From Arthrobacter sp. NtRootA1 (GTDB lineage Bacteria; Actinomycetota; Actinomycetes; Actinomycetales; Micrococcaceae), in contig NZ_AP024630.1 in the NCBI RefSeq assembly GCF_019976975.1, forward strand, positions 4,588,001 to 4,652,000: 64,000 nucleotides of DNA, written 5' to 3'. Both the position numbers and the translations under genes were made by a program. Below are positions 1-47,615 of this stretch, piece by piece. A model generated the notes under the pieces. That model ran no database searches, was not told the DNA's origin, and was given only the letters and a program-made list of their open reading frames with translations. The first letter of the stretch is position 1. Each line of letters begins with the position of its first letter.

Positions 1-1006
1 CGAACTGGTGACGCTGGACATCAACCTTCCGGACATCGACGGCATGGAAGTCTGCCGGCGCATGCGTGAGTTCTCGGACGCCTACATCATGATGCTGACG
101 GCCCGTGCCGACGAGATTGACCGGCTCAACGGTTTGGACACCGGGGCGGACGATTACATCAACAAGCCGTTCAGCCCCAAGGAACTGCAGGCCCGCATCC
201 GGGCGCTGTTCCGCCGCGCCCGGACGCCCGCTGCACCCGCCGAGGACACGCGGCAGACTGACGAACTCGCGCGCGCTGCGGTGGTGCAGAAGAGCCTCCT
301 CCCGCAGGAAACAGTCCGGCTGAACGATTACGACGTCGCTGGCGCCTTCCGCCCGTCGCGCAGCGTGGGTGGGGACTTCTACGACTGGTACCAAACCAGC
401 GACGGCATGCACCTGACGTTCGCGGACGCCATGGGCAAGGGCATGGGCGCAGCCTTGATAGCTGCCACAGTCCGCGCCGTGATGCGGTCCGTGGCTGACA
501 CCCCGGCTATTGCTGACGCTTTTGAGTCCGCCAGCGCCACCCTCACCGCCGATCTGGACCAGTCCGGATCTTTCGTGACCATGTTCCACGGGCGACTGGA
601 CAGCGCTTCCGGCAAGCTCAGCTATATCGACGCCGGTCACGGACTTGGCCTGCACGTCCCGGTCGAGGGGGCGGCACGGAGGTTGGTTTCCGCCGGGCCA
701 CCTGTCGGGATCATGGACGGACAGCAATGGCCGGCCGCGGAACTGCAGCTGGAGCCCGGCGATTCGCTGGTGATCGTTAGCGACGGCGTGCTCGACGCGC
801 ACGATTCCCTTGAAGAGTTCGTGAGGAATGTAGAGAAGGCGGCGCGGAGCGGGGGCACCTCGGACGACGTCTGCGCTGCCCTGCTCGAGCTGGCACCGGC
901 GGACACAGCGGAAGATGACGTGACCGCCGTCGTGGTTCACCGACGGCGTGAGATTGGCCGGCTGGAAAGCAACGACGGCGGAGTTGCTCAGACCATCCGG
1001 TACTAG
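1..1006 (+). CDS. Response regulator with PP2C (SpoIIE-type) phosphatase domain, 5' truncated
   Basis: The gene is cut by the left window edge; the frame is open to base 2, so the GTG at 8 is probably internal. The visible protein starts inside a receiver domain: TLDINLPDIDG carries the likely phospho-accepting Asp, MLTARAD the conserved Thr, and NKPF the conserved Lys. From about residue 95 follows a PP2C/SpoIIE serine phosphatase with the metal-binding motifs GGDFYDW, DAMGKGMGAAL, DAGHG, VSDGVLDAH and EDDVTAVVV. Proteins of this design (RsbU/RssB-like) dephosphorylate a STAS antagonist when the receiver is phosphorylated. Such an antagonist and an RsbW-like kinase lie two and three genes downstream, so the operon can encode a complete partner switch. 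The input kinase should lie left of the window. Domain calls are secure; the true target is inferred. Confidence 0.9.
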   Translation, partial: ELVTLDINLPDIDGMEVCRRMREFSDAYIMMLTARADEIDRLNGLDTGADDYINKPFSPKELQARIRALFRRARTPAAPAEDTRQTDELARAAVVQKSLLPQETVRLNDYDVAGAFRPSRSVGGDFYDWYQTSDGMHLTFADAMGKGMGAALIAATVRAVMRSVADTPAIADAFESASATLTADLDQSGSFVTMFHGRLDSASGKLSYIDAGHGLGLHVPVEGAARRLVSAGPPVGIMDGQQWPAAELQLEPGDSLVIVSDGVLDAHDSLEEFVRNVEKAARSGGTSDDVCAALLELAPADTAEDDVTAVVVHRRREIGRLESNDGGVAQTIRY

Positions 1007-1024: not shown

Positions 1025-3031
1025 GTGACGCGATTCTGGACTCGGCTTTGTGTTGTCCTAACGGTCATTCTGGGCGTGAACTACGTGGCGTGGCGCTGGC
1101 TGGCTTCGCTGAACTGGGAGGCGTGGTGGATCGCTGTACCGCTGGTGATTGCCGAGACTTACAGCCTCATTGACGTCATGCTTTTCGGCCTGACTGTGTG
1201 GAACCTGAAGATTCGCAAGCCACCGCCCGCGGCGCCAGACACCGCTACGGTCGACGTTTTCATCACCACGTACAACGAACCCTTGGACCTGGTGATGACC
1301 ACGGCCCTCGCCGCCAAGGACATCCGCTGGCCGCACAGTACCTGGATCCTGGACGACGGCAACCGGCCTGAGATGCGCGAGCTCGCCGAGTCGAACGGGA
1401 TCGGCTACGTGACCCGCGGTGCCGATTGGACACCGGACATGCCGCGGCACGCCAAGGCCGGCAACCTGAACAACGCGCTCATGGTCACCTCGGGCGAATA
1501 CCTGTTGATTCTCGACGCCGACCAGATCCCCGAACCGGACATCCTGGACAAGACGCTGGGCTACTTCAACGATGACCGCGTGGCGTTGGTCCAGACGCCC
1601 CAGTACTTCATCAACGTTCCTGCCGACGATCCCCTGGGTAGCCAGGCACCCCTCTTCTACGGCCCCATCCAGCAGGGCAAGGACGGCTGGAACGCGGCGT
1701 TCTTCTGCGGCTCCAACGCAATCCTGCGCAGGGAAGCCCTGATGCAGCTCGGCTTGGTGGGCTACGTGAAGGCCACGGAGAAGAGTGTGCGCCGTGCTCT
1801 GGCTGCGTCGCGCTCTGCCATCAAGAAGGCCCGGCGCTCGGCGGAGGCGGAGAACCCGCTGGTGGAGCAAATGCTCAACGAGGTGGAAGCCGCGACTGAA
1901 AGTGCACAGCAGGAGCTCGAAGCCGGGGCATCCTTGAGCGAGATCACGTACCGCGTACGCCGCAAAGTGGACGACGCCGTTCGCACGCTGGTGGCTGCCG
2001 ACTTCTCGGCGCTCCAATCGGACCTCGAAGAAATCGCGGCAATGGAACTGGCCCACGTCGGCGAGTCTGGCGTCACGACTGTGGCGAGTGACGCCGTCGA
2101 CCGTATGTCCGGACGCGACTGGTCACCGCTCGGTGCCCTCGAGTCCGTCCACGCAGTCCTGGACGCCATCTCCGTGGAACGCACCGACGAAGCCCAGCCG
2201 ATCATGCCCTTGGCCACCATCTCGGTCACCGAAGATATGGCAACAGCGATGCGCCTGCATGCACTTGGTTGGAAGAGCGTGTACCACCACGAAATCCTCG
2301 CCAACGGGCTGGCTCCCGAGGACATCAAGACCATGCTGACCCAGCGCCTCCGCTGGGCCCAAGGCACCATGCAGGTCCTCCTGCGCGAAAACCCTCTGGT
2401 CCAACGCCGCCTTACCTGGGGCCAGCGGCTCATGTACTTCTCCACCATGTGGAGCTACCTGAGCGGCTTCGCGGCCGTGGTGTACTTCGCGGCGCCCATC
2501 ATCTACCTGACGCTCGGCATCCTTCCGGTGACCAGCCTGAGCTTCGACTTTTTCATCCGTTTCATACCGTTCATGGTGGTGAACCAGATGCTGTTCGTCA
2601 TCGCCGGGCACGGGATACCCACCTGGCGCGGGCAACAGTACAGCCTCGCGCTGTTCCCCACTTGGATCAAGGCCTGCACGACGGCGGCGCGTAACGTCTG
2701 GTTTGGCCGTCCCCTCGGATTCGCTGTCACCCCCAAGGCACGGCAAAGTGGCGGACCCAGCTGGAGCCTGATTCGTCCGCAGATCATCGTCGCTGCGTTG
2801 CTGGCCTTGGCCATGGTGGTTGGAGTCCTTCGCCTCCTCTCCGGTATGTCGGAGCCGCTGGGAACGCTGGTGAACGTAGCGTGGGTAACCTTCGACCTGG
2901 TGGTCCTGAGCGTCCTGGTCAAGGCAGTTTTGTACAAGGGCTTTGTGCCTGAGGAATTGGCGGCTCCAGAAGGTCCTGAAAGCCCCGAACGTCCCGAACG
3001 CCCCGAAGAGAGGAATGCTGATGCAGTTTAG
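1025..3031 (+). CDS. Membrane glycosyltransferase family 2 (cellulose synthase-like) with large helical insertion
   Basis: 668 aa, GTG start 18 bp after the phosphatase gene behind a purine-rich AAAAAGGGGGGAA site. Two N-terminal membrane segments (about 8-58) precede a GT-A domain with DD (110-111), DAD (164-166), TED (402-404) and the QxxRW signature (Q440-W444); at least four membrane segments follow (about 466-640). This is the layout of processive beta-glycan synthases such as BcsA, but there is no C-terminal PilZ-like domain; the tail is short, charged and Pro/Glu-rich. Between NAILRR (231-236) and TED lie about 155 extra residues, rich in Ala, Glu, Arg and Lys and probably coiled-coil. 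The gene sits inside a partner-switch operon and its stop overlaps the next gene, so synthesis of an exopolysaccharide or wall glycan may be controlled by that switch. The product polymer cannot be told from sequence. Confidence 0.88.
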   Translation: MTRFWTRLCVVLTVILGVNYVAWRWLASLNWEAWWIAVPLVIAETYSLIDVMLFGLTVWNLKIRKPPPAAPDTATVDVFITTYNEPLDLVMTTALAAKDIRWPHSTWILDDGNRPEMRELAESNGIGYVTRGADWTPDMPRHAKAGNLNNALMVTSGEYLLILDADQIPEPDILDKTLGYFNDDRVALVQTPQYFINVPADDPLGSQAPLFYGPIQQGKDGWNAAFFCGSNAILRREALMQLGLVGYVKATEKSVRRALAASRSAIKKARRSAEAENPLVEQMLNEVEAATESAQQELEAGASLSEITYRVRRKVDDAVRTLVAADFSALQSDLEEIAAMELAHVGESGVTTVASDAVDRMSGRDWSPLGALESVHAVLDAISVERTDEAQPIMPLATISVTEDMATAMRLHALGWKSVYHHEILANGLAPEDIKTMLTQRLRWAQGTMQVLLRENPLVQRRLTWGQRLMYFSTMWSYLSGFAAVVYFAAPIIYLTLGILPVTSLSFDFFIRFIPFMVVNQMLFVIAGHGIPTWRGQQYSLALFPTWIKACTTAARNVWFGRPLGFAVTPKARQSGGPSWSLIRPQIIVAALLALAMVVGVLRLLSGMSEPLGTLVNVAWVTFDLVVLSVLVKAVLYKGFVPEELAAPEGPESPERPERPEERNADAV

Positions 3032-3353
3032 CTACGAAGTCAGAGACACTTACGCGGAGGTGAAGGGCGTTGGCCGGTTAAACATGGTGGCAGCCCCGAA
3101 GCTGCGTGAGGTGGTGGCCGAGGTGGTGGCCGGCGGATCCAGCCGTGTAGTGGTCAACCTTGCAGAAACCGACTTCATGGACTCATCGGGGCTTGGCGCA
3201 CTCATCGGCTGCCTCAAGGCCGCCCGCCAGGCGGGCGGCGACTTGCGGATATCGGGTGTGCAGCCGCAGGTCAAAATGGTCCTGGAGCTGACCAACATGG
3301 ACCGGGTATTGACCGCGTACTCCTCAGCGGAGGAGGCGTTCGGAAATGACTGA
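3021..3353 (+). CDS. STAS-domain anti-sigma factor antagonist
   Basis: 110 aa. The ATG at 3021 is chosen because GAGAGGA lies 6 nt upstream; it overlaps the last bases of the glycosyltransferase gene, implying translational coupling. An in-frame ATG at 3015 has no room for a ribosome site. The protein is a single STAS domain (SpoIIAA/RsbV family) with the loop NLAETDFMDSSGLGAL, whose DSSGLG serine is the usual phosphorylation site for an RsbW-type kinase. The kinase gene follows with an 8-bp overlap and the matching PP2C phosphatase opens the operon. In known systems the unphosphorylated form binds the kinase and releases its client. Here no sigma factor is adjacent, so the client could be the glycosyltransferase or a distant sigma factor. 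Confidence 0.88.
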   Translation: MQFSYEVRDTYAEVKGVGRLNMVAAPKLREVVAEVVAGGSSRVVVNLAETDFMDSSGLGALIGCLKAARQAGGDLRISGVQPQVKMVLELTNMDRVLTAYSSAEEAFGND

Positions 3354-3765
3354 AGTAATCGCCCGCAGGGGCTACAGGGGACCCTCCGACGACGACGCGA
3401 TCGAGGCCATCCACACCGAGCTGGACGCTCTGTGGGATGACGCCTCATTCGTGCCGGAGATGGACCGGATGACGTTCACAACCGCCGTCATCGAGTCCGC
3501 CGCCAACATCGTCCAGCACGCGCAGCCCGTGGGCGAGAAGCCGGTGGAGATCGACGTCGACATCACCGTGCAGCCCACCCGTCTCGTGGCAAGGGTCAGT
3601 GCCCACAATGCCCGGGAGCCCTTCGCCGAGGACATGCAGGCAGACTTGCCGGACGAAGAAGCCGAGTCCGGCCGTGGGCTGGCGCTCATCGAGATGCTGG
3701 TGACAACAGTGACCTTCGAGCGCCAGGACGGCACCAACACGTGGATCCTGACCCGCGAAACCTGA
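3346..3765 (+). CDS. RsbW-like serine kinase / anti-sigma factor (HATPase_c_2)
   Basis: 139 aa. ATG at 3346 overlaps the stop of the STAS gene by 8 bp, with GGAGGAGG upstream. The protein is a GHKL ATPase of the RsbW/SpoIIAB type: the N box AVIESAANIVQHA and the G box ESGRGLALIEML are both present, with an Asp-rich region between them. The family binds a client, often a sigma factor, and inactivates its STAS antagonist by serine phosphorylation. Order and overlaps make it the kinase arm of the switch formed with the phosphatase at 1-1006 and the STAS protein. No sigma gene is present in the cluster, which leaves the client open. The operon appears to end here, before a block of intergenic repeats. 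Confidence 0.87.
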   Translation: MTEVIARRGYRGPSDDDAIEAIHTELDALWDDASFVPEMDRMTFTTAVIESAANIVQHAQPVGEKPVEIDVDITVQPTRLVARVSAHNAREPFAEDMQADLPDEEAESGRGLALIEMLVTTVTFERQDGTNTWILTRET

Positions 3766-4598: not shown

Positions 4599-5678
4599 AT
4601 GCCGGGATTCTACGGTGCTGACATTGATCAACTTCGGGCGCTCGCCAAGACAATGTCCCGGCACTCGGAAAAAATGAGCACGCTTTCGCTGGAATTGGGC
4701 CAGCTCATATCCAGCGCGCCATGGGACGGCCGTGACGCAGTGATGTTCCGGACGACTTGGGAGTCGGAGCACCGCCCGATGCTGAAGCTGATTTCCGGCG
4801 AGTTGCAAAGCCAGGCCAACGAGCTGAGCCGCAATGCGGACGAGCAGGACAAGACCAGTTCCGAAGGCACCCGTTCCGGCGACGCAGGCAAACAGGATTC
4901 AAATCCTCCCGGCGATCCGGGGCCGTTGGATCCGAATACTTCGGATGTGGATGTTCCAGGCGACGTCCGTAAAGACCCCGATGCAGGTGATCCGGCCGAT
5001 ATCCACCAAGGGCAAATCGGCGACTGCTGGCTCTTGGCAGGCATTGGCTCTGTGGCGCAGACGTTGGAGCGCGAAGGCAAACTCGATGAATTCCTTGCCT
5101 CCCATATGCGTCCCGTAGGAGATCCCCCAACGCACTGGGTTGTGACTCTCTACGAAGACGGCGAACCCGTCGAAGTGACGGTGGAGGCCAAGTCCACTGA
5201 GGGCGGAGTCCGAGGCGCCGACGGCCAGCCGAACTGGCTTTCCATTTATGAACGTGCTGCGGCCGAGCACCGTGGCGGTTCATACGATGACATTGATGGC
5301 GGGTTCAGCAACGATGCAATGGAGCTCATGACGGGACAGTCGGCGGATAAGGACGGCGAACTGGACCTTGAGGAGATCGAAGACAAACTAGCTGACGGTC
5401 AGGCGGTCTCGGTTGGCACCCAAGACGTCAAGGACGACGACTTTGACTGGTTCTGGGAGCCGGACGAGGTCAGCCGCACCGATGTCGTCCCCAACCACGC
5501 CTACATCGTGGTGGACGTAAAGACCAACGACGACGGCGAGAAAGTCGTTGTTCTGGCCAACCCTTGGGGTCCTGCAGGTGGGGAGCTGAATGGTGAGCAG
5601 AAGGCCGGAACCCTGGAACTGACCGAGGATGAGTACAAGGAAAACTTTGACTCCGTGTACTCCGTGGGCGTGAAGTAA
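4599..5678 (+). CDS. WXG100-like domain fused to calpain-type (C2) cysteine protease
   Basis: 359 aa, ATG 4599 downstream of AGGGGGA. Residues 1-85 form an alpha-helical hairpin like WXG100/ESX proteins, with the turn motif WDG at 42-44. A Ser/Asp/Pro-rich linker (about 85-132) leads to a calpain-family protease. The catalytic Cys is C143 in GQIGDCWLLAGIGSV, His is H300 in PNHAYIVVDV and Asn is N321 in LANPWGP, so the whole C2 triad is present. There is no Sec signal peptide; a WXG100 head points to export by a type VII (ESX) system, whose core genes are not in this window. Target and role are unknown: a secreted effector or toxin against other bacteria is plausible. A 92-residue gene follows after 2 bp and may be its partner or immunity protein. 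Confidence 0.85.
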   Translation: MPGFYGADIDQLRALAKTMSRHSEKMSTLSLELGQLISSAPWDGRDAVMFRTTWESEHRPMLKLISGELQSQANELSRNADEQDKTSSEGTRSGDAGKQDSNPPGDPGPLDPNTSDVDVPGDVRKDPDAGDPADIHQGQIGDCWLLAGIGSVAQTLEREGKLDEFLASHMRPVGDPPTHWVVTLYEDGEPVEVTVEAKSTEGGVRGADGQPNWLSIYERAAAEHRGGSYDDIDGGFSNDAMELMTGQSADKDGELDLEEIEDKLADGQAVSVGTQDVKDDDFDWFWEPDEVSRTDVVPNHAYIVVDVKTNDDGEKVVVLANPWGPAGGELNGEQKAGTLELTEDEYKENFDSVYSVGVK

Positions 5679-47121: not shown

Positions 47122-47615
47122 CGTTCCACCCCCATTTCATCAAGGATCGTTCGGAGGGCTTTCACAGCATAGAAAGCCCGGGATTTCACAGTGCCGGCAG
47201 GGATGTTCAGCTGCAGTGCTGCCTCACTGACGGTGAACCGCTGGTAGTGCAGGGCAACAAGGACCTCGCGGTGTTCGTGGCTGAGCCGCAGGAGCGCCTC
47301 TTCCATAAGGACTCGGTTCAGGAGCTCATCAACGCGTTCCGTCGCAACATGGTCTGGAAGGTCGTGCTCGCCAGCCTCGACAGGGCGACGCTGTGACTTC
47401 CGATAGTTGTCGATGATGACGTTGCGGGCAGTCCGGAAGAGGTAGCTGCGCAGGCTGCCTGTAATCTGCGGCGCGTGCTGCCACACCTTGAGGATGGTCT
47501 CCTGCACGACGTCGTCGGCCTGGTGCGTGTCCGAGATGCAGCTGAGCACAAAGCGTTTCAGGGCCACGCCGTGATCGCGGTAGATTGCCGCAACGACGTC
47601 CTCGTCCAACGGCAT
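47118..47615 (-). CDS. ECF (group 4) sigma factor
   Basis: 165 aa from ATG 47615, behind GGAGG at 5 nt; an open frame to 47765 crosses the promoter and is rejected. Sigma region 2 is ISDTHQADDVVQETILKVWQ and SYLFRTARNVIIDNYR; region 4 is LSHEHREVLVALHYQ with the HTH TVSEAALQLNIPAGTVKSRA. There is no region 3, as expected for ECF. It drives its own operon and the divergent lipoprotein gene through matching TGAACC/CGTCGTA promoters in the gap. The anti-sigma gene follows with ATGA overlap. Confidence 0.95.
   Translation of the reverse strand: MPLDEDVVAAIYRDHGVALKRFVLSCISDTHQADDVVQETILKVWQHAPQITGSLRSYLFRTARNVIIDNYRKSQRRPVEAGEHDLPDHVATERVDELLNRVLMEEALLRLSHEHREVLVALHYQRFTVSEAALQLNIPAGTVKSRAFYAVKALRTILDEMGVER

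Follow-up and report, generated by a model that had tools for sequence, protein, structure and literature searches.

An operon on the 5.28-Mb chromosome of Arthrobacter sp. NtRootA1, of a kind present in soil actinobacteria, raises the question of whether a partner switch can act on the synthesis of a glycan through the synthase itself. Partner switches are best known as controllers of transcription; in the textbook case RsbW is held from its sigma factor by unphosphorylated RsbV. The operon described here encodes the protein kinds of such a switch, together with a BcsA-like glycosyltransferase (GT). Our answer, which we hold with slightly better than even confidence, is that this partner-switching module outputs to the glycan synthase instead of to a sigma factor, and that the unphosphorylated STAS protein is the direct effector of the GT.

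Gene layout of the operon

The window, by which we mean the whole stretch of DNA that was analysed (64,000 nt), holds four genes in a row and in one direction, in the order response regulator-PP2C phosphatase (RR-PP2C), GT, STAS protein and RsbW-type kinase (Table 1). The first of them crosses the window edge, its start lying 155 bp upstream (full ORF at L002:12846-14006). A preliminary description of this DNA had reported a PP2C phosphatase, a STAS antagonist and an RsbW-type kinase with no sigma factor in the operon, and a GT gene in overlap with the STAS gene. Both points hold. Pfam recognises the three families, there is no sigma factor near the operon (the closest Sigma70_r2 match that the genome has lies some 44 kb off, at about window position 47,385), and the GT stop codon (3029-3031) and the STAS start overlap by 11 bp. 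The STAS gene is read from the ATG at 3021, with an alternative start at 3015, to the stop codon at 3351-3353, and it overlaps the kinase gene by 8 bp. Its DSSG motif is kept in all STAS rows aligned. In the kinase the Glu and Asn of the N box and the G2 box are conserved; the Asp of the G1 box is present in 11 of 16 diverse kinase rows and absent from five, including those of the window's clade, in whose kinases nucleotide binding is possibly altered. The closest named relatives of the GT come from Paenarthrobacter, with identities of at most 95%.

Elsewhere in the window, at 4599-5675, an ORF joins a WXG100-like N-terminal stretch (E 0.0018, under the model's cut-off) to a calpain-type cysteine protease domain (5.7e-18). 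It resembles a type VII secretion effector, and the 92-aa ORF after it could be the partner of this candidate.

Table 1. Features of the operon, in window coordinates
Feature	Position	Strand	Evidence
Response regulator fused to SpoIIE-type PP2C phosphatase, 3' part	1..1006	+	Pfam SpoIIE 9.7e-35, Response_reg 9.2e-17
BcsA-like family-2 glycosyltransferase (GT), 668 aa, GTG start, without PilZ	1025..3031	+	ORF, Pfam, NCBIfam, phmmer, motifs
Helical insert of GT, 154 residues (residues 244-397), between FFCGS and TED	1754..2215	+	phmmer, alignment, AlphaFold
STAS-domain protein, DSSG motif, predicted phospho-serine S55 (codon 3183-3185)	3021..3353	+	Pfam STAS 4.2e-18
RsbW/SpoIIAB-type serine kinase (predicted)	3346..3765	+	Pfam HATPase_c_2 1.4e-12

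The glycosyltransferase and its helical insert

The motifs of the GT are DDG (residues 110-112), DADQ (164-167), FFCGS (226-230), TED (402-404) and QRLRW (440-444), and the D, DxD, TED and QxxRW catalytic motifs are invariant across 35 aligned GT sequences. Pfam matches the protein to the Cellulose_synt and GT2 families, while phmmer aligns residues 3-244 and 396-632 with solved BcsA chains and leaves the insert between them unaligned. The GT thus has its catalytic motifs and core alignment in common with the BcsA cellulose synthase, but differs from it in the helical insert, in a score below the cut-off of the NCBIfam CelA model (356.2 bits, the cut-off being 699.1) and in PilZ, whose absence had been claimed before and for which a Pfam scan at E 1 gives no match. 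The whole GT was also modelled with AlphaFold, but at a mean pLDDT of 60 the model was too poor to base claims on.

The preliminary description had also placed a coiled-coil insertion of 155 residues, at about residues 243-397, between the DxD and TED parts of the active site. A helical insert does lie there, and we put it at 154 residues. AlphaFold models it as all-helical (mean pLDDT 69, pTM 0.58), with helices predicted at residues 3-30, 37-58, 63-102, 111-122 and 128-141 of the insert segment; going by this model, ‘helical’ appears a safer label than ‘coiled coil’. Its length is nearly fixed: by a slightly wider cut it is 156 in 81 of 88 rows (a few species are repeated among these), 154-159 in six and 170 in one. 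With a profile prepared from 22 inserts, 23 of 394 genomes sampled across the class proved to have the insert (in one it is only a broken partial form), as did 2 of 396 sampled across the phylum; the window's own genome is counted in both samples. In a plasmid collection no GT covered 80% of the query.

A Foldseek search of the PDB with the insert model gave no match below E 0.3, and Pfam gave no family for the window's own insert, with weak matches to TraB_PrgY_gumN in seven of the 22 inserts (best 1.2e-4). VIA-align matches reached Z 8.9, mostly to designed helical bundles, a value within the range that the program's notes give for common helical arrangements, and we claim no relative from them. 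Flagellins, matched when the 22-insert profile was run against PDB sequences (best E 0.0023, over one helical stretch), were set aside as helix bias.

Linkage of the insert to switch genes

A search for related loci, together with stretches taken from genomes, gave 121 distinct loci with an insert-bearing GT, and at 109 of these PP2C, STAS and kinase genes all lie on the same strand within 1.5 kb of the GT. Three others have STAS and kinase with no PP2C (L079, L142, L188), and two have PP2C only (L055, L137), the contigs ending beside both GTs. None of the three genes adjoins the GT at the remaining seven. Two of these (L071, L072) have STAS and kinase a few kb from the GT on the opposite strand; four (L064, L187, L189, L190) have a complete RR-PP2C/STAS/kinase cassette elsewhere in the same genome as the GT; and one (L185) is a frame-split second GT copy, in a genome whose intact operon is L186. 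The displaced cassette at L216 adjoins a histidine kinase. The score cut leaves outside the 121 both L149, where the insert GT is broken and a PP2C fragment accompanies it, and the short-insert GTs treated below. Nine further insert GTs beyond the 121 (L257-L265) have PP2C, STAS and kinase without exception.

The comparison set consisted of 13 insert-free GT loci (L159, L163-L174), two of them on short contigs (L159 and L170, the latter with only part of the GT). STAS, kinase and PP2C profiles at E 0.01 matched at none of the 13. A neighbourhood survey had been proposed to learn whether the insert is equally common in GTs without switch genes, and by these counts, 109 of 121 insert loci with the cassette and 0 of 13 insert-free ones, it is not.

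The link also appears at the level of genomes. Of 245 from the Micrococcaceae, 46 give a GT match at E 1e-60, 52 give a kinase match at E 1e-10 and 46 give both, which places the kinase in 46 of 46 genomes with the GT and in 6 of 199 without it (phi 0.93), as raw counts that are not corrected for phylogeny and come from searches with different thresholds. Three of the six kinase-only genomes (G943, G1006, G1035) have a full RR-PP2C/STAS/kinase cassette (L268-L270) and no insert GT at E 1e-60. Another (G1024) has STAS and kinase, and G1077 the kinase only. In G1119 (L267:5126-6458) an RR-PP2C stands beside 24 codons left of a GT and a kinase match that is shortened, apparently a decayed operon. 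A more distant GT in any of the six could fall under the cut, and cassettes without a GT possibly have another client.

STAS protein or kinase as the probable ligand

The genus also has another type of GT, whose insert is shorter (112-113 residues); of 206 genomes, 20 contain a match to it over its full length. Immediately downstream of each of these 20 GTs lies a STAS gene whose product has alanine at the phosphosite (GASG in 19, AASG in one). No kinase or PP2C match was found in flanks of up to 1.5 kb around any of the 20, nor within about 6 kb at the three seen on 14-kb stretches (L162, L183, L184). One full-length-insert GT (L266, in genome G1223) shows this pattern too: its STAS protein reads DAMG, with alanine at the phosphosite, and there is no kinase or PP2C match in the 14-kb stretch that holds it. 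Passages on the Vibrio protein SypA give its phosphorylated serine as S56, next to D55 (PMC4517449, PMC8256260), so that the residue lost to alanine in STAS is the equivalent of the phospho-acceptor.

A tree of 35 GT cores, built after the insert was taken out, puts both the short-insert clade and L266 beside the GTs that lack this insert (support 0.89 and 0.95), with the cassette GTs beyond. Either these lineages have therefore lost the kinase and phosphatase, or the two were added to a GT-STAS pair that already existed, and both readings leave STAS, to judge from the sequences, as the constant partner of the GT. Since STAS with alanine stays beside GTs that lack a linked kinase or phosphatase, we take STAS to be a likelier GT ligand than the kinase. 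The preliminary description had read either the kinase or the STAS protein as binding the insert and switching glycan synthesis, a view that these gene comparisons support in part. The unphosphorylated form more likely activates the GT, because a permanently inhibiting STAS would make the short-insert genes useless. The alanine STAS could instead bind the kinase of a second operon rather than its own GT: all 20 short-type genomes have a second GT too, about 50-54% identical to the short type, and its full insert was verified in G085, G1039 and G1054.

These same GTs bear on the best-placed competing explanation, in which the kinase inhibits the GT through its insert, and unphosphorylated STAS draws the kinase off, as with RsbW, RsbV and the sigma factor. 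We consider it unlikely, although it matches the textbook partner switch, the kinase co-occurs with the GT in all 46 GT genomes, and the distance correlation between insert and kinase is 0.50. Calculated over 75 dereplicated loci with the GT core held fixed, the corresponding values are 0.56 for insert and STAS, 0.52 for kinase and STAS, and 0.13-0.23 for pairs with PP2C. Such figures agree with a switch model, and as sequence correlations they do not separate STAS from kinase as the partner. What argues against the kinase is the set of 21 GTs (20 with the short insert, one with the full insert) that have STAS and no linked kinase, where a lone antagonist would have nothing to oppose unless it acted on the kinase of another operon.

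A proposed model for control of the synthase

With STAS as the ligand, we propose that a sensor kinase would act on the receiver domain of the RR-PP2C, whose fused PP2C would strip phosphate from Ser55 of STAS. The free, unphosphorylated STAS would bind the GT, probably through the helical insert, and the STAS-bound GT would be switched on to make and export a beta-linked extracellular glycan. Phosphorylation or sequestration of STAS by the RsbW-type kinase would switch it off. In its fullest form this proposal has STAS activate a processive membrane glycan synthase directly and allosterically, via the helical insert between DxD and TED, with serine phosphorylation replacing c-di-GMP and PilZ, and with the kinase-free lineages permanently on through a non-phosphorylatable STAS. 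We judge the chances that it is right in this form to be evenly balanced.

The insert might instead serve assembly of the enzyme, into oligomers or with another subunit, and the switch might act on a different step of glycan production. Plant cellulose synthases offer a precedent, having extra cytosolic regions of the catalytic domain that are discussed, in passages of one paper, as sites of assembly or interaction (PMC8306620), and the three genomes that hold a cassette and no insert GT are in keeping with such a role. Yet the 13 GT loci that lack linked switch genes showed no insert, and one is present, short or full, in all examined actinobacterial GT lineages with a linked STAS, a Nostoc locus (below) being the exception. 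We regard a role in assembly as quite improbable.

A possible sigma factor client in trans

Regions 2, 3 and 4 are all present in a group-3 sigma factor encoded by the window's genome (L234:7715-8491, corresponding to G000:C1:87714-88490), and within its 17-kb stretch there is no STAS, kinase or PP2C match to the cassette profiles. At E 1e-20 this sigma factor occurs in 70 of the 245 genomes, 30 of them shared with the kinase and 40 without it (phi 0.33), and at that cut it is missing from 18 genomes having both GT and kinase. The preliminary description had named a sigma factor client among the findings that would speak against its reading; the one candidate examined tracks the kinase poorly. 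Sigma-like ORFs were seen at seven of 184 loci scanned, three of them of housekeeping type, a weak negative in that 15 of 21 sigma loci were used and, for several of those on the minus strand, the wrong strand was taken. That the switch governs a sigma factor in trans, for example this one (G000:C1:87714), with the GT merely co-transcribed, would suit a sigma gene that has no such cassette within its 17-kb stretch and an operon kinase that, alone among the 16 HATPase_c_2 matches of the genome, sits in a short open frame, but the phi value, the genomes with one partner and not the other, and the few sigma-like ORFs in that scan of 15 sigma loci make it improbable.

The probable glycan product

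Genes around related loci bear on what the GT makes. One cluster of 21 neighbour ORFs recurs at 17 of 35 diverse insert loci, and the nine of its members that were tested with Pfam comprise five GH26 and four OpgC proteins; at L187 GH26 and OpgC are in a single reading frame. The short-insert loci L162, L183 and L184 continue with a GH26 protein, and on their upstream side is a divergently oriented GH16 lectin-domain enzyme (by Pfam at L162, read by sequence at the other two). Three ORFs downstream in the window, tested with Pfam, include no GH26- or OpgC-type neighbour. GH26 enzymes are mainly endo-beta-1,4-mannanases, as summarised in part of one paper (PMC13390465). From the GH26, OpgC and GH16 neighbours of its relatives, we infer that the product is probably a beta-linked, possibly acylated, extracellular glycan.

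Related systems

The RsbU-RsbV-RsbW and SpoIIE-SpoIIAA-SpoIIAB systems have their families in common with the window (PP2C, STAS with DSSG and a GHKL-type kinase), whereas the window has no linked sigma factor and has a glycan synthase beside the cassette. Closer in output is SypA of Vibrio fischeri, described in passages of two papers as a single-domain STAS protein that is active when unphosphorylated, has one phosphorylated serine and governs biofilm polysaccharide, its direct target being stated there as unknown (PMC4517449, PMC8256260). The SypA/SypE pair resembles the window's system in tying a phosphoserine STAS to a polysaccharide; it differs in having kinase and phosphatase in one protein, and the passages on it name no insert-bearing synthase. 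HmpU, HmpV and HmpW of Nostoc punctiforme belong to a locus for motility and polysaccharide, where they are the phosphatase, the STAS protein and the kinase, the STAS being suggested to be active when dephosphorylated and its direct target again stated as unknown (PMC8256260). They are the same three kinds of protein as in the window, but the passage on them gives no GT partner. The same source describes all4160 of Anabaena as a STAS domain and a glycosyltransferase in one protein, a likeness by description, and a fusion unlike the separate STAS and GT genes here (PMC8256260). Among the open-licence papers listed by literature searches, none deals, by title and abstract opening, with a partner switch whose target is a glycan synthase.

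In another phylum, plasmid pn1 of Nostoc sp. UHCC 0926 (L273:6236-15187) has a BcsA-like GT near a switch-type gene set. This GT lacks the insert, with 27 residues at that site, and its interval from DDG to HAKAGN runs to 130 residues, against 28. Near it are a PIG-L protein, a STAS protein with DSSG, a PP2C, a receiver protein, an RsbW-type kinase and a hybrid histidine kinase, along with an ORF without a Pfam match between PP2C and receiver, and a weak GH26 match below its cut-off. A single locus, it widens the link between GT and switch but weakens the case for this insert as a universal docking site.

For STAS proteins linked to polysaccharides, the Arthrobacter locus offers a candidate direct target, namely the synthase itself. 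Its insert, of near-fixed length, is a testable candidate docking domain, and the STAS proteins with alanine at the phosphosite provide natural variants. If our proposal is true, a BcsA-like synthase without PilZ would be under post-translational control that is independent of c-di-GMP.
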